This document shows positions 52,846 through 64,000 of a stretch of 64,000 nucleotides of DNA, one piece after another. Location: the NCBI GenBank assembly GCA_002166865.1, contig NHTQ01000002.1, positions 706,133 through 770,132 of the forward strand, in the 5' to 3' direction. Numbering within the stretch: position 1 is the first letter of the stretch; each line of letters begins with the position of its first letter. The notes beneath the pieces are model-generated. The model worked only from the letters and a program-made list of their open reading frames with translations. It made no database searches and was not told the origin of the DNA. Made by a program: the position numbers and the translations under genes. The DNA comes from Rhodobacteraceae bacterium WFHF2C18 (lineage in GTDB: Bacteria; Pseudomonadota; Alphaproteobacteria; Rhodobacterales; Rhodobacteraceae).

Positions 52846-54876
52846 ATGACGATTCAACAGGTATCAAGCTTTGCCGCCGGTGAGTGGGTGGCTCCGGGCG
52901 AGGGTGCCCGGAATATCCCGAGCGCCGTCACCGGCGAGGTCATCGCCAGCGCCGGGAACGCGGCCCTGGACGTCCAGGCGATGCTCGATCACGCCAAGTC
53001 CCTCGGCGGGCCGGCGCTGCGCAAGATGACGTTCCACGAGCGCGCCAAGATGATCAAGGCGATCGCGGTGCATCTGGGCGAGCACAAGCAGGAACTCTAC
53101 GACCTGTCTTTCGATACCGGCGCGACCCAGACCGACCACCTGATCGACATCGACGGCGGGATCGGCACACTGTTCGTTTTCGCCTCCAAGGGGCGGCGCG
53201 AAATGCCCGACGGGCACGTCTACCTTGACGGTGACGTCGAGCAGTTGTCGCGGCACGGCACCTTCCTGGGGCAGCACGTCTGCACCCCGCTGCAAGGGGT
53301 GGCGGTGCATATCAACGCCTTCAATTTCCCCGTCTGGGGGATGCTGGAGAAGCTTGCGCCGACCCTTCTGGCCGGTGTGCCGGCCATCGTGAAGCCGGCG
53401 ACTAGCACCTGCTACGTGACGGAGCGCTGTGTGAAACTGATCCTGGACTCCGGCCTGCTGCCGCAGGGGGCGCTGCAATTCGTGGCCGGCGGCCTGGGCG
53501 ACATGCTGGACCGGCTGGGCAGCCAGGACGTGGTCAGCTTCACCGGTTCGGCGGACACCGCGCTCAAACTGCGCTCGGCGCCCAACATCCTTGAGAACTC
53601 GGTGCGCTTCGTGGCCGAGCAGGACAGCCTCAACGCCTCGATCCTGGGACCGGACGCCGTGCCGGGCAGCCCCGAATTCGACCTTTTCGTCAAGGAGGTC
53701 TGCCGCGAGATGACGGCCAAGGCGGGGCAGAAGTGCACCGCGATCCGCCGCATCTTTGCCCCTCAGGCCAACGTCCAGGCGGTGATCGAGGCCGTGTCCG
53801 ACCGGCTGTCGAAGACCGTCATCGGCGATCCGCGGCTGGAAACCACCCGCATGGGCGCGCTGGTCAGCAACAGCCAGAAGCACGACGTCCTGGAGAAAGC
53901 CGCCACCCTGGGCACCGAGGCGGAACGCGTCTACGGCGATCCCGACAACTTCGAGGTCTCGGGCGCCGACGCCGAAAAGGGTGCTTTCCTGCCGCCGATG
54001 CTGTTTCACTGCGGCGATCCGGACAACGCCGTGCGCGTTCACGATACCGAAGCCTTTGGTCCCGTCTCGACGGTGATGGGGTATCGCGATCTGGACCACG
54101 CGGTTGAACTGGCCAACAAGGGGCAGGGTTCGCTCGTCGCCTCGGTCATCACCCACGATCCCCAGGTTGCCCGCGAGGTGACGATGAAGGCCGGCGCCTA
54201 TCACGGGCGGCTGTATTTCAACAATCGCGACTCGATGAAGGAATCCACCGGCCACGGCTCGCCCCTGCCGCACATGGTGCATGGCGGCCCCGGCCGCGCC
54301 GGCGGCGGCGAGGAGATGGGCGGCGTGCGCGGCGTCAAGCACTACATGCAGCGCACCGCGGTGCAGGGATCGCCCGATATCCTCACCGGCATCGGCCAGA
54401 AATGGGTGCCGGGCGCGACCGAGATCGAGGCGGCCGCGCATCCCTTCACCCGCCGCTTCGGCGAGCTGCAGATCGGGGAAACCCTGCACACCGCGCCGCG
54501 GCAGGTGACGCTGGAGGACATCGAACACTTCGCCGAGTTCACCGGCGATACCTTCTACGCGCACATGGATCAGGCCGCGGCCGAGCGGAACCCCTTCTTC
54601 CCCGGGCGCGTGGCGCATGGCTATCTGCTGATCTCCTTTGCGGCGGGGCTTTTCGTGGAACCGGCCGAGGGGCCGGTGCTGGCCAACACGGGCCTGGACA
54701 ACCTGCGCTTCATGAAGCCGGTCGAGGCCGGGGACAGCATCAAGGTGCGTCTGACGGTCAAGAAGAAGACCCCGCGTAACGAGGACTACGGCGAGGTCCG
54801 CTGGCACGTCACGCTGACCAACCAGGATGACGAGATGGTGGCGGAATACGATCTGCTGACCATGAACGCCTATTGA
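52846..54876 (+). CDS. paaZ: Oxepin-CoA hydrolase / 3-oxo-5,6-dehydrosuberyl-CoA semialdehyde dehydrogenase
   Basis: This 676-residue bifunctional protein has an aldehyde dehydrogenase domain (about residues 1-510) with E258 in VAEQDSLN and nucleophile C297 in [10 protein letters not shown], and a C-terminal MaoC-type hydratase (about 530-676) with the catalytic [11 protein letters not shown]. PaaZ opens the oxepin ring and oxidises the aldehyde product. Both active sites look complete. It follows the TRAP genes and precedes the PaaX-family regulator. Confidence 0.94.
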
Positions 54877-54887
54877 GGCGGGGGCAC

Positions 54888-54907
54888 GGCCCGACTATAG
54901 TCGGGCC
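54888..54907. promoter_or_regulatory. 20-bp perfect palindrome touching the PaaX-family start codon
   Basis: GGCCCGACTATAGTCGGGCC is a perfect dyad that ends one base before the ATG at 54908 and begins 11 bases after the paaZ stop. It contains TATAGT, near a -10 element. It could be an autoregulatory operator or, in RNA, a hairpin hiding the start of the next gene. Confidence 0.6.
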
Positions 54908-55714
54908 ATGCAAGCCTCTGGCACCCAAGAAAAAATTGACTGCCTGACCGGCTGCGGCCCGCTCAAGGTCTGGTCGGTGGTCATGACGGTGCTGGGCGAT
55001 CTGTGCCGGGACCGCCACGATCGCGTGGGCGGCAAGCTCCTGACCGTTCTGGGCGACCGCATGGGGATCTCGCCGCAGGCGATGCGCGTGGCGCTCCACC
55101 GCCTGCGCCGTGACGGATGGATCGAAAGCGAACGCATCGGGCGGGAATCGGAATACTTCCTGTCCGATTTCGGCTGGCAGGAAACACAGTCCGTCCGGCC
55201 GCGCATCTATTTCGACGAGGAGCGGCGTAACCGGACGCCGATCCTGATCGTCGCACCGCCGCAGGTTCCCGCGACCGATTTCGCGGATTCCCTTCCCGGG
55301 GACGCGAACGTGATCGCGCCGCGGACCGCGCTCGCCGTTCAGCCCTGCGACGATTTGCCTGCGGCGTATCTCGTGACCGACCTGCGCGCCACGCCGGTCC
55401 CCGAATGGATCGTGGACATGGTCGCCGGCGAGGATTTGCGCAGCGAATATGCCGCGCTCGCCGATTGCGCGGCGCGCGTCGCGGCCGCGCCGGCCCCCGA
55501 TGACCTGGTGGATGCGACGGTGCTGCGGCTGCTGGTCCTGCATCACTGGCGGCGCCTGCGCCTGCGCCACGGCGATCTGCCGGCGCTGTTGCTGCCGCCG
55601 GATTGGGAAGGCGCAAGGGCAGGGCGGGCCGTGAAGGCTACCCTGGAACGGTTTCCGCGCCCGACGCTGGCGGCGCTGTCAACGGCCCGGACGCGCGACA
55701 AACTGCGCACCTAG
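54908..55714 (+). CDS. PaaX-family transcriptional regulator
   Basis: This 268-residue protein matches the PaaX family: an N-terminal winged helix with MGISPQAMRVALHRLRRDGWIESER (about residues 57-81), a central domain and a C-terminal helical domain with WRRLRLRHGDLPALLLPPDW. In E. coli PaaX represses paa genes and responds to phenylacetyl-CoA. Here the cluster also has a TetR-type PaaR, so the two may split control. No ribosome site is visible before the ATG; a palindrome abuts it. Leaderless translation is possible. Confidence 0.82.
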   Translation: MQASGTQEKIDCLTGCGPLKVWSVVMTVLGDLCRDRHDRVGGKLLTVLGDRMGISPQAMRVALHRLRRDGWIESERIGRESEYFLSDFGWQETQSVRPRIYFDEERRNRTPILIVAPPQVPATDFADSLPGDANVIAPRTALAVQPCDDLPAAYLVTDLRATPVPEWIVDMVAGEDLRSEYAALADCAARVAAAPAPDDLVDATVLRLLVLHHWRRLRLRHGDLPALLLPPDWEGARAGRAVKATLERFPRPTLAALSTARTRDKLRT

Positions 55715-56192
55715 GCGGTTCCGTCCGTCCGGGGGAACTGCATTCGGCTTGATGCCTGGAGCGGCCGGTGCATCCGCCCGAATACCACCCCTGACCCGCC
55801 CGGACCGCGTCTCCCGCGATGCTGCTTCGCGGCACTGTTTGCGCACAGACGTTCATCATCCGAAATTTTGGTTCGTCACTTTAAGAATATGTTTGACGTC
55901 GATGTCGCACACAGACCTTGAAATGGCGAAAATGGTGTGCAGTATGACGGTCACAGGGCGGGAAGCCGGCAGAATCGCTTTGATGTGCGAAATAAAGGTC
56001 GGTGCCATGATTGACTGACGCGCGACGTTTCGCGCGCACCGCCTGGGAAAACCGCGCAACTGCGCGGACAAGATCGAAAGAATTCTTTGCGGCTGCAGCA
56101 TGCCCTTCACGCTGGGGCTTGGCCGCATCCTGCCGGACGACAGCGCCGCAAGAGCGCGCCGGCCCCACGCTAGGACGGAGTGAAGTAACGTC
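55715..56192. other. Long leader/promoter region before the betaine operon
   Basis: This 478-base gap has no convincing gene. The part from about 55860 to 56010 is AT-richer than its surroundings and probably holds the promoter. Two adjacent hairpins follow: GCGCGA/TCGCGC at 56020-56035 and CCGCGC/GCGCGG at 56052-56067. I looked for SAH and SAM riboswitch cores and did not find them. No EcfG promoter is present. An osmotic-stress promoter or a structured 5' leader is likely. Confidence 0.45.
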
Positions 56193-57878
56193 ATGAACGA
56201 TTACCAAGCCGAGAACGCGGAACTGACGATGACCGACCAGGTCTACAGCGAAGATCCGCTGGCCGATCGCGAGACCGACCATTACCGCAAGGAATATGTC
56301 CGGACCTTTGTGGACAAGTGGGACGAGCTGATCGACTGGCGCGGCCGCGCCGAGAGCGAGGGCCAGTTCTTCATCGACATCCTGCGTGCCCGTGGCAAGG
56401 AGCGGGTGCTCGACGTGGCCTGCGGGACCGGCTTTCATTCGGTCCGCTTGACCGAGGCGGGATTTGACGTGACCGCCTCGGACGGGGCGGCCTCGATGGT
56501 GGCCAAGGCCTTCGAGAACGGGCAGGCGCGGGGCCTCATCCTCAAGACCGCGCAGGCCGACTGGCGCTGGCTCAACCGCGATATCCACGGCAAGTACGAC
56601 GCGATCGTCTGCCTTGGCAACTCCTTCACTCACCTGCACAAGGAATCCGAACGCCGCCGCGCGCTGGCCGAATTCTACGCCGCGCTCAAGCATGACGGGC
56701 TTCTGATCCTGGACCAGCGCAATTACGACGCGATGCTCGACAGCGGTTATACGACCAAGCACAAGTATTACTATTGCGGCGACCAGGTCACCGCCGAGCC
56801 CGACCATGTCGACGAAGGGCTGTGCCGGATGCGCTATTCTTTCCCCGACGGGTCGGAATACACGCTGAACATGTGCCCGATCCGCAAGAACTATATGCGC
56901 CGCCTGCTGTCCGAGGCGGGGTTCGAGCGCGTGCGCACCTACGGCGATTTCCAGGAGACCTATGCCGAGGATGACCCGGATTTCTTCATCCACGTGGCCG
57001 AGAAATCGGCGTTGCATCTCGTGCGCTGGGGCACCACCTCCGAGGATGGAAAAGAAGACATCCGCGACATCACCGAGGATTACTACGACAGTGATGACGC
57101 GGACACGTTCTATTCCACCATCTGGGGCGGCGAGGACCTGCATATCGGCCGCTATGCCGAAACGCCGGATATCCGCACTGCATCGGACCGCACCATCGAG
57201 TCGATGATCGACCGTTTGCCCAGGCTGGACGCCTCGGCCCGGGTTCTCGACATGGGCGCGGGCTACGGCGGGGCGATGCGCACGCTGGTCCGCAAGACCG
57301 GCTGCGAGGCGGTCTGCCTGAACATTTCCGAGACCCAGAACGAGTATAACCTGGGCAAGATCCGCGCCGCCAAGCTGGCCGGCAAGATCTCGGTGCGGCA
57401 CGGCGTGTTCGAGGACGTGCCTGAGGCCGATGCCAGCTGCGACGTGGTCTGGAGCCAGGACGCCTTCCTGCATTCCGATCAGCGCGCCGGCGTGCTGGCC
57501 GAGGCGTGGCGCGTGCTCAAGCCCGGCGGGCACCTGATCTTCACCGACCCGATGCAGGCTGACGACGTGCCCGAGGGCGTGTTGCAACCGGTCTATGACC
57601 GCCTGCAACTGAACAGCCTCGGCAGCCCCCGGTTCTACCGCGAAGCGGCCGAGGCGCTCGGCTTCGAGACCTTGGAACAGGAAAATGCGGTCAGCGACCT
57701 GCGCACCCACTATTCCCGCGTCCGCGAGGAACTGCTGGCCAATTATAACACCCTGCGCGAGGCCGGGGCCTCGGCGGAGTATCTCGACAAGATGGCCGTG
57801 GGACTGGAAAACTGGGTGAAGGCCGCCGATGACGGGCATCTCGCCTGGGGCATCCAGCACTTCCGCAAGCCCGAATGA
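56193..57878 (+). CDS. Fused glycine/sarcosine and sarcosine/dimethylglycine N-methyltransferase
   Basis: This 561-residue protein contains two SAM-dependent methyltransferase domains. The first (about residues 20-285, motif I VLDVACGTGFHS at 72) matches glycine/sarcosine N-methyltransferase. The second (about 300-561, motif I VLDMGAGYGGA at 351) matches sarcosine/dimethylglycine N-methyltransferase. Together they carry glycine through sarcosine and dimethylglycine to glycine betaine, using three SAM. In Ectothiorhodospira-type halophiles these are two genes; a fused form is known from Actinopolyspora. It heads an operon that recycles SAM. The start could also be residue 13. Confidence 0.9.
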   Translation: MNDYQAENAELTMTDQVYSEDPLADRETDHYRKEYVRTFVDKWDELIDWRGRAESEGQFFIDILRARGKERVLDVACGTGFHSVRLTEAGFDVTASDGAASMVAKAFENGQARGLILKTAQADWRWLNRDIHGKYDAIVCLGNSFTHLHKESERRRALAEFYAALKHDGLLILDQRNYDAMLDSGYTTKHKYYYCGDQVTAEPDHVDEGLCRMRYSFPDGSEYTLNMCPIRKNYMRRLLSEAGFERVRTYGDFQETYAEDDPDFFIHVAEKSALHLVRWGTTSEDGKEDIRDITEDYYDSDDADTFYSTIWGGEDLHIGRYAETPDIRTASDRTIESMIDRLPRLDASARVLDMGAGYGGAMRTLVRKTGCEAVCLNISETQNEYNLGKIRAAKLAGKISVRHGVFEDVPEADASCDVVWSQDAFLHSDQRAGVLAEAWRVLKPGGHLIFTDPMQADDVPEGVLQPVYDRLQLNSLGSPRFYREAAEALGFETLEQENAVSDLRTHYSRVREELLANYNTLREAGASAEYLDKMAVGLENWVKAADDGHLAWGIQHFRKPE

Positions 57879-57887
57879 CGCGGGGAA

Positions 57888-57913
57888 GGCGGGGCGGCCC
57901 AAGCCGCCCCGCC
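57888..57913 (+). other. Stem-loop between methyltransferase and metF
   Basis: A perfect 11-bp stem (GGCGGGGCGGC pairing with GCCGCCCCGCC) encloses a CCAA loop, 10 bases after the methyltransferase stop and 36 before metF. It may protect the first-gene mRNA and lower metF expression. Confidence 0.55.
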
Positions 57914-57948
57914 CGACGATCCACTACGTCCAGCAACGGAGCGAACAC

Positions 57949-58827
57949 ATGACGGGGCAGCATCCCGACCGCGACACAGCGGTCTCCTTCGAGCTTTTCC
58001 CGCCGAAGACGGAGGCCGGGATCGAGGCGCTTGAGCGCACGGTCGACGCGTTGGCCACCGCCGGCCCGGGCTACTTCTCGGTCACTTACGGCGCAGGTGG
58101 CACGACCCGCGATCGCACCGGCCGCATCGTGGAGATGGTCCGGCGCCGGACCGGGCTGCCGGTGGCCCATCACCTGACCTGCGTGGGCGCGGATCGCGGC
58201 GAAGTCGATGACCAGGCGCGCGCCCTGTTGGACCAAGGCGTGCGGCACGTGGTGGCGCTGCGCGGCGATCTGCCAGAGGGCGAGACGCTAAGGGCGGACG
58301 GCTACCGCGACGCGGCTGAGTTGGTGGCCGGCCTGCGCCGGATCGGGGACTTCGACCTCTCCGTCGCCGCCTACCCCGAGGTCCACCCCGAGGCGGCGAA
58401 CGCTCAGGCCGACCTCGACCACCTCAAGCGCAAGATCGACGCCGGCGCGAACCGGGCCATCACGCAGTACGCCTTCGACACCGAGACCATCCTGCGCTTC
58501 ATCGACCGCGCCCGCGGCGCCGGGATCGAGGCGCCCATCGTCCCCGGCATCATGCCCGTGGCCAATTTTGCCGGTCTCAAGAAATTCTCGGCGAACTGCG
58601 GCGCCAGCATCCCCCCCTGGATGGAAGAGATGTTCGCCGGTCTCGACGACAATCCGTCCATGCGCGACATGGTGGCCACCAGCGTCGCGAGCGAACAGTG
58701 CCGGCGTCTCATGGCCGAAGGTGTCACCGAGTTCCATATCTATACCCTGAACAAACCGGCGGTCACTCTTGCGATCTGTCGTGCGCTCGGCTTGCCTGCC
58801 GAGGCCCGCCAGGATCGCGCCGCATGA
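57949..58827 (+). CDS. metF: Methylenetetrahydrofolate reductase
   Basis: This 292-residue protein has the MetF motifs [11 protein letters not shown] near the start, [14 protein letters not shown], and [18 protein letters not shown]. It reduces 5,10-methylene-THF to 5-methyl-THF, supplying the methyl group for MetH. GGAG precedes the ATG at 57949. It is the second gene of the betaine operon. Confidence 0.93.
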
Positions 58828-58843
58828 AAAAGGTGGAGAACAC

Positions 58844-59910
58844 ATGACAGCCGATATCGAACGCCACGCGGCCGAGCGCATCCTCGTGCTCGATGGCGCC
58901 ATGGGCACGATGATCCAGCAAAACAAGCCGGACGAGGCCGCCTACCGCGGCGAAAGGTTCAAGGGTCATCCCGCCGACGTGGGTGGAAACAACGAATTGC
59001 TCAGCCTTACGCAGCCCGACATGATCCGGCAGATCCACGCCGATTTCCTTGAGGCCGGGGCCGACATCCTGTGCACCAATACCTTCGGCGCGAACGCGAT
59101 CAGCCAGGCCGATTACGACATGACGGATCTGGTGTACGAAATGAACGTCGAAAGCGTACGGCTGGCACGCGAGGCGGCCGATGCCGCAGCCACCGCTGAG
59201 CGGCCCCGCTGGGTTGCCGGTGGTATCGGGCCCACGAACCAGACGGCCAGCATTTCACCGGACGTGAACGACCCCGGCTACCGGGCCGTCGTTTTCGACG
59301 ATCTGGCACGCGCCTATGGCGACGCGGCGCGTGCTCTGATCGAGGCGGGGGCCGACCTGATCCTGCTGGAGACGATCTTCGACACGCTGAATGCCAAGGC
59401 GGCGATCTTCGCCATCGAGGCGTTGCGCGACGAGGGCCTGCCCGTGCCGCCGCTGATGATCTCGGGGACCATCACCGACCGCTCGGGGCGCACGCTGACC
59501 GGGCAGACGCCCGAGGCGTTCTGGGTGTCGATGAGCCACGCGCGGCCCTTTTCCATCGGGCTGAACTGCGCGCTTGGCGCGGGCGAGATGCGGAGCCACG
59601 TGCGCACCCTGTCCGAGGTGGCTGACACCCGCGTCAGCGCCTACCCCAACGCGGGCCTGCCGAACGAGATGGGCGGCTACGACGAGACGCCCGAGGAGAC
59701 GGCCGCGCATCTGGGCGAATGGGCTGACGCGGGGCTGGTGAACATCGTGGGCGGCTGCTGCGGCACCACGCCCGACCACATCCGTGCCATCGCCAAGGCG
59801 GTAGAAGGCAAGGCGCCGCGGCCGGTGCCCGACAAGGTGCGCCACATGCGCCTGAGCGGGCTTGAAATGTTCGAGGCCGCCAGCGCAGGACAGCAGAACA
59901 AGGGGGCCGC

Positions 59911-59914
<4 letters not shown>
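58844..59914 (+). CDS. MetH homocysteine-binding module (split methionine synthase, part 1)
   Basis: This 356-residue protein is the zinc and homocysteine-binding domain that normally forms the first module of MetH. It begins [14 protein letters not shown] and has the zinc ligands C242 (GLNCALG) and C305/C306 (GGCCGTTP). It has no folate or cobalamin domain, so it must work with the next gene product. Its stop overlaps the part-2 start (ATGA), which would favour assembly. Annotations may call it betaine-homocysteine methyltransferase, but the MetH part next door argues against that. Confidence 0.85.
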
Positions 59915-62580
<2,666 letters not shown>

Positions 62581-62617
62581 CAGGGATCGGGCGCAACTTC
62601 GAAAGGAGAGGAACGAG

Positions 62618-63802
62618 ATGAGCGACAGAACCTGGCTTTTCACCAGTGAATCGGTGTCAGAGGGACACCCGGACAAGGTCTGCGACCGGATCTCCGACGC
62701 CGTGCTGGACGCCTACCTGGCAGCCGACCCCCAGTCGCGCGTGGCCTGCGAGACGCTGGCGACCACCGATCGCGTTGTCATTGCCGGCGAGGTGCGCGGC
62801 CCCGACGACGTGCGCCAGCACGTCGAGGAACTGGCCCGGCAGGCGATCAAGGACATCGGTTACGAGCAGACGGGCTTTTCGTGGAAGACCTGCGCGGTCG
62901 AGAACCTGTTGCACGAGCAGTCCTCCGATATCGCCATGGGCGTCGACGAGGGCGACAAGGGTGAGGAAGGCGCCGGCGACCAGGGCATCATGTTCGGTTA
63001 CGCCTGCAACGAGACCGACGAGCTGATGCCGGCGCCGATCCAGTTCTCGCACCGCATCCTGCGCCGCATGGCCGAGGACCGCAAATCGGGCGCCCAGCCG
63101 AAGTTCGGCCCGGACGCGAAAAGCCAGGTGACGCTGGAATACCGCAACGGCCAGCCCGTGGGCCTGGACACCGTGGTGGTCTCCACCCAGCACCTCGAGG
63201 GCGTCAGCCAGGACGAGGTGCGCGAGATGGTCAAGCCCTACATCGAGAAGGCGTTCCCGGCCGACTGGAAACTGCCCGACGACAAGCTGATCGTGAACCC
63301 GACCGGCAACTTCGTCATCGGCGGCCCCGATGGCGACGCCGGGCTGACAGGCCGCAAGATCATCGTGGATACCTACGGTGGCGCGGCCCCGCACGGCGGC
63401 GGCGCGTTCTCGGGCAAGGATCCGACCAAGGTGGACCGCTCGGCGGCCTACGTCGCGCGCTATCTGGCAAAGAACGTCGTGGCGGCCGGGCTGGCCGACA
63501 AGTGCCAGATCCAGTTGGCCTATGCCATCGGCGTGCCCGAGCCGGTCGCGCTCTATGTCGAGACGCTGGGCACTGGCCGCGTGGACGAGGACAAGCTGGC
63601 CCGGACCCTGCGCGAGGTGGTGCGGCTGACTCCGCGCGGCATCCGCGAGCATCTGGACCTGCTCAAGCCGATCTATGCCCGCACAGCGGCCTACGGCCAC
63701 TTCGGGCGCGCCCCCTCGGACGACGGCGGCTTCTCCTGGGAGAGGACGGATCTCGCCGACGAACTGGCCCGCGCCTTCGGCGCCACCGCCGCGGCTGAAT
63801 GA
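62618..63802 (+). CDS. metK: S-adenosylmethionine synthetase
   Basis: This 394-residue enzyme has the MetK signatures [32 protein letters not shown] and [19 protein letters not shown]. It makes SAM from methionine and ATP. AAGGAGAGG lies before the ATG. It follows metH by 37 bases and supplies the donor for the betaine methyltransferase. Confidence 0.95.
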
Positions 63803-63842
63803 GCCGGACCACGCCACGGAATTTCGAAAGGAAAGACACGAG

Positions 63843-64000
63843 ATGAACAAACCCGAGACACCCACACCCGAGGACTGCGCGATCCGCGACATTTCCCTGT
63901 CGGATTACGGCCGTCGGGAGATTGCGATTGCGGAGACGGAGATGCCGGGGCTTATGGCCCTTCGGGAAGAGTATGGCGATGCGCAGCCGTTGAAGGGGGC
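63843..64000 (+). CDS. ahcY: Adenosylhomocysteinase, N-terminal part (cut by window edge)
   Basis: The first 52 residues are visible from ATG 63843 to the window end. They contain [30 protein letters not shown], split here as [22 protein letters not shown] and REEY, the conserved N-terminus of S-adenosylhomocysteine hydrolase. The enzyme splits SAH into adenosine and homocysteine, relieving product inhibition of the betaine methyltransferase. It is the last visible gene of the operon, 40 bases after metK. Confidence 0.9.

Follow-up and report, generated by a model that had tools for sequence, protein, structure and literature searches.

The window analysed here is a stretch of 64,000 nucleotides from Rhodobacteraceae bacterium WFHF2C18 (host assembly 3.36 Mb, 12 contigs) that covers positions 706133-770132 of contig C5 and runs up to the end of that contig. 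Between 56193 and 64000, six co-directional genes on the + strand form what is here called the cassette: a fused methyltransferase gene predicted to act in betaine synthesis from glycine, metF, a two-part metH, metK and ahcY, the last reaching the contig end (Table 1). A first-pass annotation of the window had described this run, and it is present as described, but with ahcY cut after 52 codons. The genes are separated, in order, by 70, 16, -4 (an ATGA overlap), 37 and 40 bp, and those for methylenetetrahydrofolate reductase (MTHFR), methionine synthase (MS) and methionine adenosyltransferase (MAT) lie directly 3' of the methyltransferase gene on the same strand. A terminator scan returned four terminator-like sites, none of them in any spacer between cassette genes, and we infer that the six genes are read as one transcript.

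Table 1. Cassette genes and upstream element (positions in the window).
Feature	Position	Strand	Product	Support and remarks
Direct-repeat element	55903..55929	+		Conserved, TGTCGCACACAGACCTTGAAATGGCGA; 290 bp 5' of methyltransferase start
Fused methyltransferase	56193..57878	+	Glycine/sarcosine + sarcosine/dimethylglycine N-methyltransferase, 561 aa, one open reading frame	NF051855, PDB 5gwx/2o57
metF	57949..58827	+	Methylenetetrahydrofolate reductase, 292 aa	TIGR00676, PF02219; GGAG ribosome-binding site
metH part 1	58844..59914	+	Homocysteine S-methyltransferase domain, 356 aa	PF02574, 335 bits
metH part 2	59911..62580	+	Pterin-binding/B12-binding/activation domains, 889 aa	PF00809, PF02607, PF02310, PF02965
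metK	62618..63802	+	Methionine adenosyltransferase, 394 aa	TIGR01034, 511 bits; no SAM/SAH riboswitch
ahcY	63843..64000	+	S-adenosylhomocysteine hydrolase, first 52 codons	PF05221 positions 2-42

Products were assigned by profile and structure matches. The N half of the fused enzyme matched the NCBIfam model for glycine/sarcosine N-methyltransferase (GSMT; NF051855) at 461 bits, above the cut-off of 350, and the GSMT structure 5gwx at 398 bits; the C half matched 2o57, a putative sarcosine/dimethylglycine N-methyltransferase (SDMT) structure, at 215 bits. The metF start was moved to the one with a ribosome-binding site, and MetF scored 301 bits against TIGR00676 (cut-off 294). The cassette MetH carries the domain set of the classical cobalamin enzyme, with the homocysteine domain in the first open reading frame (ORF) and the pterin, B12 and activation domains in the second, which scored 1205 bits against TIGR02082.

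The same genome also holds a housekeeping set for the cycle that makes and recycles S-adenosylmethionine (SAM). A second metK was located at C1:122679 (product 66% identical to the cassette MetK), a second metF at C5:365791 (47%), and the start of a second ahcY at the end of contig C6. The methionine synthase outside the cassette is of the split type, with MtgC-like (203 bits against NF047996, under the cut-off of 370), MtgD-like (407 bits against NF005719) and MtgE-like (608 bits against NF005718) proteins encoded on C1. The cassette MetH, which combines its pterin, B12 and activation domains in a single ORF, is not of this type and is only 28-32% identical to the genome's Mtg-like parts. In a family draw of 394 genomes (about one per genus), an MtgC homologue was found in 363 and a classical MetH domain over cut-off in 67, so the split type is inferred to be the common methionine synthase of the draw. 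That the cassette is self-contained in betaine synthesis and SAM recycling, as had been proposed, holds for the gene set, which by sequence lies in one run; the term needs some qualification in that ahcY is incomplete, a housekeeping cycle is also present, and glycine and methylene-tetrahydrofolate (THF) must come from elsewhere.

The two metK copies differ in their leaders. A SAM/S-adenosylhomocysteine (SAH) riboswitch (RF01727) was found 5' of the housekeeping metK (L018:2109-2157, 56.1 bits, E 1.5e-9), ending 4 bases before the start codon; this riboswitch lies upstream of metK in 13 of 15 Rhodobacterales, according to the part of Leyn et al. 2014 (PMC4239095) that was available. The cassette region (54500-64000) gave no Rfam match at E <= 1, RF01727 included. 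The same contrast recurs among the genomes of the draw with a fused enzyme (12/394). Seven carry metK both inside and outside the cassette; RF01727 precedes the outside copy in 7/7 and the cassette copy in 0/7. Two (G142, G233) have a single metK, outside the cassette and with RF01727, and in one (G083) the single metK lies some 57 kb away from the fused enzyme and has no riboswitch. For the last two (G331, G341), no metK other than that of the cassette was found, and no SAM/SAH riboswitch; it looks as though the cassette copy had taken the place of the housekeeping one. Whole genomes were scanned through the best 150 candidates per genome, and 16 metK neighbourhoods were checked separately at E <= 1, with RF01727 in 0/8 cassette copies and 7/8 others (the exception being G083). 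At gathering score, RF01727 was also absent from another eight cassette loci, which brings the count for cassette metK regions to 0/17 (at E <= 1, or at gathering score for the eight). A control element of another Rfam-known kind on the cassette metK was also considered and rejected, none being matched in the 17 regions examined; the sole riboswitch hit among the eight loci scanned at gathering score, a SAM_alpha in L051, is more than 7 kb away from the cassette. A metK without RF01727 would likely escape that SAM/SAH brake.

Cassette MetK and MetH also group separately from the non-cassette proteins with which they were compared. In a quick tree of MetK, all 25 cassette copies, the named ones of which span five NCBI families, formed one clade (support 99) and all 10 non-cassette copies another (92). 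A quick tree of MetH placed 19 cassette part-2 proteins and 20 non-cassette MetH (taken from 20 of the 58 family genomes with such a MetH) in two clades with 100% support in the Shimodaira-Hasegawa-like approximate likelihood ratio test (SH-aLRT). The MetH of G278, a genome of the window's genus in which no fused enzyme was found, fell in the non-cassette clade. Chelativorans, a member of a different order, groups within the cassette clades (some inner branches are weak), and this may point to a transfer of the cassette. A classical MetH was found in 11/12 fused-enzyme genomes versus 56/382 others (Fisher p = 1.7e-8, relatedness ignored), no more than about 6 kb from the fused enzyme in 9/12, elsewhere in G083 and G233, and not at all in G142. 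Two side observations concern these families. G278 encodes an apparently two-part MetH of the non-cassette kind together with an MtgC homologue. The window's genome has a third, divergent MetK homologue (C1:9162-10283, L019:2163-3284, - strand; 36% identity, 243 bits, under the TIGR01034 cut-off) beside what appears by eye to be a P-type ATPase gene, and a similar MetK was seen in G062 (C5:79365).

Gene content in relatives was surveyed in the best 80 genome loci, several of them metagenome bins, ordered by how closely they match an alphaproteobacterial query and so not a frequency estimate. Fused enzymes proved widespread: a fused single frame of at least 549 codons (stop to stop) was present in 67 of the 80, and 12 of those 67 were actinobacterial by record title. 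The earlier view of the fused enzyme as rare beyond actinobacteria was rejected on these loci. Eighteen distinct metH-bearing alphaproteobacterial loci were retained, the window included and same-genome duplicates (L037, L048) and a truncated locus (L107) excluded. All six genes were present, at least in part, in 11/18 (the window, L024, L025, L026, L029, L039, L040, L041, L046, L049 and L075). The full gene set is thus common, not obligatory, in metH-bearing loci. One locus (L038) stops within metK, and that of Chelativorans xinjiangense (L046:8883-9221) has a match to AhcY residues 1-113 though the locus goes on, either a broken gene or an assembly fault. Roseibium and some others have the fused enzyme and metK alone in the flanks fetched, and three Rhodospirillales loci (L070, L072, L074) have metK 5' of the fused enzyme, with a MetK that is only distantly related. 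The cassette had also been considered as usually plasmid-borne; this was rejected, the fused enzyme being found in 1/72,556 plasmid records (E <= 1e-50). The sole match (NZ_CP121116.1:18058-19740, 85% identity) is from Roseinatronobacter sp. S2, of an alkaline spring.

Upstream regions of 11 cassettes were aligned and showed by eye one well conserved block, with the consensus TGTCGCAnACAAAGGTTGAAnnGTCG, 270-303 bp before the start. Matrices were built from these 11, leave-one-out for the 11 themselves, and compared with 1,490,616 background positions. The window element scored 26.9 when left out, against 21.5 for the best background position. The full matrix gave it 32.9 and no more than 6.3 to any other site on either strand of the 64-kb window. 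Among the metH-bearing loci, 11/18 scored above the best background position (a count not fully independent, as two Roseovarius loci are near relatives) and 13/18 above the 99.9% level for 500-bp stretches, with the element 269-306 bp upstream; for 22 loci in which metH was not seen, the numbers were 2 and 3. Nine metH-bearing loci lay outside the matrix: L031, L032, L041, L049 and L051 exceeded the 99.9% level at 269-306 bp, L040 was weak, and L030, L045 and L046 had no element. One matrix member (L029) scored just 5.3 when left out, and the top background match sits within a metH gene (L046). The TGTCG words of the element repeat at a spacing of 21 bp, roughly two turns of the helix. In L073, another match overlaps the first at an offset of 21 bp; both observations fit a protein that binds direct repeats. 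The element may serve the cassette as operator or promoter element. A sigma-70 promoter scan gave one site (54873-54901), which is outside the gap before the cassette, and shuffled sequences gave as many.

The break in ahcY can be traced to the second copy. The last 119 bases of C5, in the cassette ahcY, equal the last 119 bases of C6, both within the start of the gene; C8 begins in an ahcY 3' end, and the gene's central part was not found in the assembly. The C6 copy adjoins a RegA-like regulator gene (by eye) and for that reason is taken for the one in the housekeeping place. With two copies so alike, the assembly would have collapsed and contig C5 would end in the cassette ahcY. The cassette gene is complete in the relatives L026, L029, L030, L039, L041 and L049. 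Within genomes, ahcY copies are close to identical, although the comparisons come from contig ends and assembly may overstate them: in G282, two contig ends agree at 1303/1303 bases, the identity stopping a few bases from the stop codon, and the 5' parts at 99.3% over 403 bases; values were 99.5% over 376 bases in G354 and 97.8-100% over stretches of 137-232 bases in G253. Between genera, identity is about 78-88%. A DNA tree of 13 ahcY rows left cassette and housekeeping labels unseparated (4 changes) and was poorly resolved. The likeness may go back to gene conversion or to repeated recent duplication, or may in part be an assembly effect.

Five alphaproteobacterial contigs continue past a complete cassette ahcY. 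In four (L026, L029, L030, L039) the next gene encodes a PfkB-family protein, and in L049 a phosphoglycerate mutase-like gene takes that place. L041 holds the first 169 residues of the kinase, to near the contig end. The kinase gene was also seen in G282, after an ahcY copy of another contig, and in G315, at the end of a contig. The closest solved relative is 3ubo, annotated as adenosine kinase (213 bits), and no NCBIfam model was matched over cut-off. The kinase of an actinobacterial cluster (L110) scored 373 bits against structures named adenosine kinase. Removal of adenosine pulls the reversible SAH hydrolase reaction forward.

The cluster type had been thought undescribed as an operon with the complete cycle, but the same five functions are listed by Imhoff et al. 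2020 (PMC7824335), cited here from the part available, as fusedMT-MTHFR-MS-MAT-SAHase for Roseivivax roseus and Roseovarius nitratireducens, with smaller sets for others. Those clusters resemble the window in the five functions, their order and the broad bacterial group; MS is one item there and two ORFs here, and in that part of the paper no upstream element is named and the cluster genes are not compared with other copies. In its text 'riboswitch' and 'adenosine kinase' each occur 0 times. The Halorhodospira cluster of the same source (GMT-DMT-MAT-SAHase-MTHFR) likewise sets betaine synthesis beside SAM-cycle genes, and the reasoning given for it is that such enzymes supply methyl groups and remove SAH; it differs in its separate methyltransferases, its gene order and a methionine synthase located elsewhere in the genome. 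Seven actinobacterial clusters (Prauserella, Phytoactinopolyspora, Tamaricihabitans and others; L091, L100, L105, L108, L109, L110, L114) share with the window the fused enzyme, metK, a metH-like gene and ahcY in 7/7 and a metF match in 3/7, and the one checked (L110) has an adenosine kinase-like gene. They differ in gene order, in a divergent MetH (one ORF, in L110) and in a distant MetK (3/7 placed in the tree), and seem to have been assembled independently on the same principle. The portion consulted of the account of the Rhodobacterales SAM/SAH riboswitch regulon (PMC4239095) mentions no second, riboswitch-free metK. Among the literature matches listed, judged by titles and abstract starts, none joins this riboswitch with betaine clusters and no adenosine kinase link was found; the lineages and the upstream element were not found either, no dedicated search having been made for them. 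The cluster type is therefore already described, and the riboswitch, lineage, adenosine kinase and upstream-element links are new here as far as the literature searched goes.

These observations are best read as a dedicated second SAM cycle, escaped from feedback, that would feed betaine synthesis from glycine (probability about 0.74). The fused enzyme would make betaine by three SAM-dependent methylations, at a cost of three SAM per betaine. MetF would supply methyl-THF, with which the two-part MetH would methylate homocysteine; MetK would make SAM and, lacking the riboswitch, would likely keep working at high SAM or SAH; and AhcY would remove inhibitory SAH, aided in some relatives by the adenosine kinase-like protein pulling the reaction. 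Osmotic control, exerted through the upstream element, would govern the whole cassette, expressed as a single unit. By analogy, the cassette may do for betaine what the feedback-free aspartate kinase Ask_Ect does for ectoine in ectoine clusters. As far as the available part of PMC7824335 describes it, ask_ect too is a pathway-specific precursor isoenzyme outside housekeeping feedback, but there the enzyme itself is exempt, whereas for the cassette metK the difference is the missing riboswitch. The question at stake is how a cell can pay three SAM per osmolyte while SAM and SAH normally hold back SAM synthesis, and the sequence offers a testable answer in a separate SAM cycle whose metK has no switch. 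In the engineering of methylation pathways, such a cassette could also serve as a ready-made module that regenerates SAM.

Several points weigh against a dedicated, feedback-escaped cycle. The C half of the fused enzyme scored 289 bits against the SDMT model NF041675, under its cut-off of 550. AhcY is incomplete in the window's cassette, and cassette and housekeeping ahcY look near-identical, hence no specialised isoform at that step. In metH-bearing loci MetF is missing from 5/18 (L027, L030, L031, L032, L051) and AhcY from 3/18 (L031, L045, L051), and the element is weak or absent 5' of 5/18. The sole related kinase in the window's genome at E <= 1e-15 (C8:100530, 38% identity) is not beside ahcY. 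A missing riboswitch leaves room for other feedback, for example on the enzyme itself, and the cassette MetK may come from a lineage that never carried one, so that 'escape' names an effect and not a proven loss. The MetH domain counts include two short fragments over cut-off (G124, G273).

A wider reading, to which we give even odds, is that the cassettes are a second SAM cycle, portable and insulated, in which metK and metH lineages cross orders with the fused enzyme, bring their own operator and no riboswitch, and displace the housekeeping metK in some hosts. If so, hosts with a displaced housekeeping metK would lose this SAM brake.

The best-surviving alternative, which we consider unlikely though worth keeping in view, concerns the reason for a dedicated MetH: the housekeeping Mtg synthase would be shared with betaine demethylation, and a separate MetH would avoid drawing on or opposing it. 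In Ruegeria pomeroyi the split Mtg enzyme works in methionine synthesis and also in the demethylation of betaine (PMC12478193, available in part). An MtgC homologue was found in 9/9 cassette-MetH genomes, and there was no MtgC match in the two fused-enzyme genomes whose MetH lies elsewhere (G083, G233). However, MtgC was found in 363/394 genomes and is also present in 43/58 genomes with a non-cassette MetH (Fisher p = 0.19, MtgC alone compared). A significant exclusion or requirement between MtgC and the cassette MetH was accordingly rejected.

Less probable still is that the genes beside the methyltransferase are the ordinary methionine and SAM genes, merely clustered, with no dedicated cycle. 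It would suit G331 and G341, where the cassette metK is the sole metK found, and G199, G331 and G341, where the cassette ahcY is the sole ahcY found (an identical copy may be collapsed), as well as the 119 bases that the window ahcY has in common with a second copy. It fits poorly with the window's genome, where metK, metF and ahcY each occur a second time and the methionine synthase outside the cassette is of another type, and with the separate clades of cassette MetK and MetH.

In animals, glycine N-methyltransferase is a methyl sink that balances SAM:SAH. That the cassette serves likewise, with betaine a by-product and not an osmoprotectant, is the least credible alternative: the N half does match glycine N-methyltransferase structures, which we take to be animal enzymes, at 82-87 bits, but its match to 5gwx is far stronger, the SDMT half would carry methylation on to betaine, and a pure sink needs no adjoining MetF, MetH and MetK.

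Two neighbouring features were recorded in addition. The region just 5' of the cassette on the same strand (52846-55714) encodes a bifunctional enzyme of the PaaZ type and a PaaX-like regulator (84 bits, under the TIGR02277 cut-off), neither of them likely to be related to the cassette. In Rhodosalinus sediminis, a SAM_alpha riboswitch (L051:2625-2702, 38.0 bits) lies more than 7 kb upstream of the cassette.

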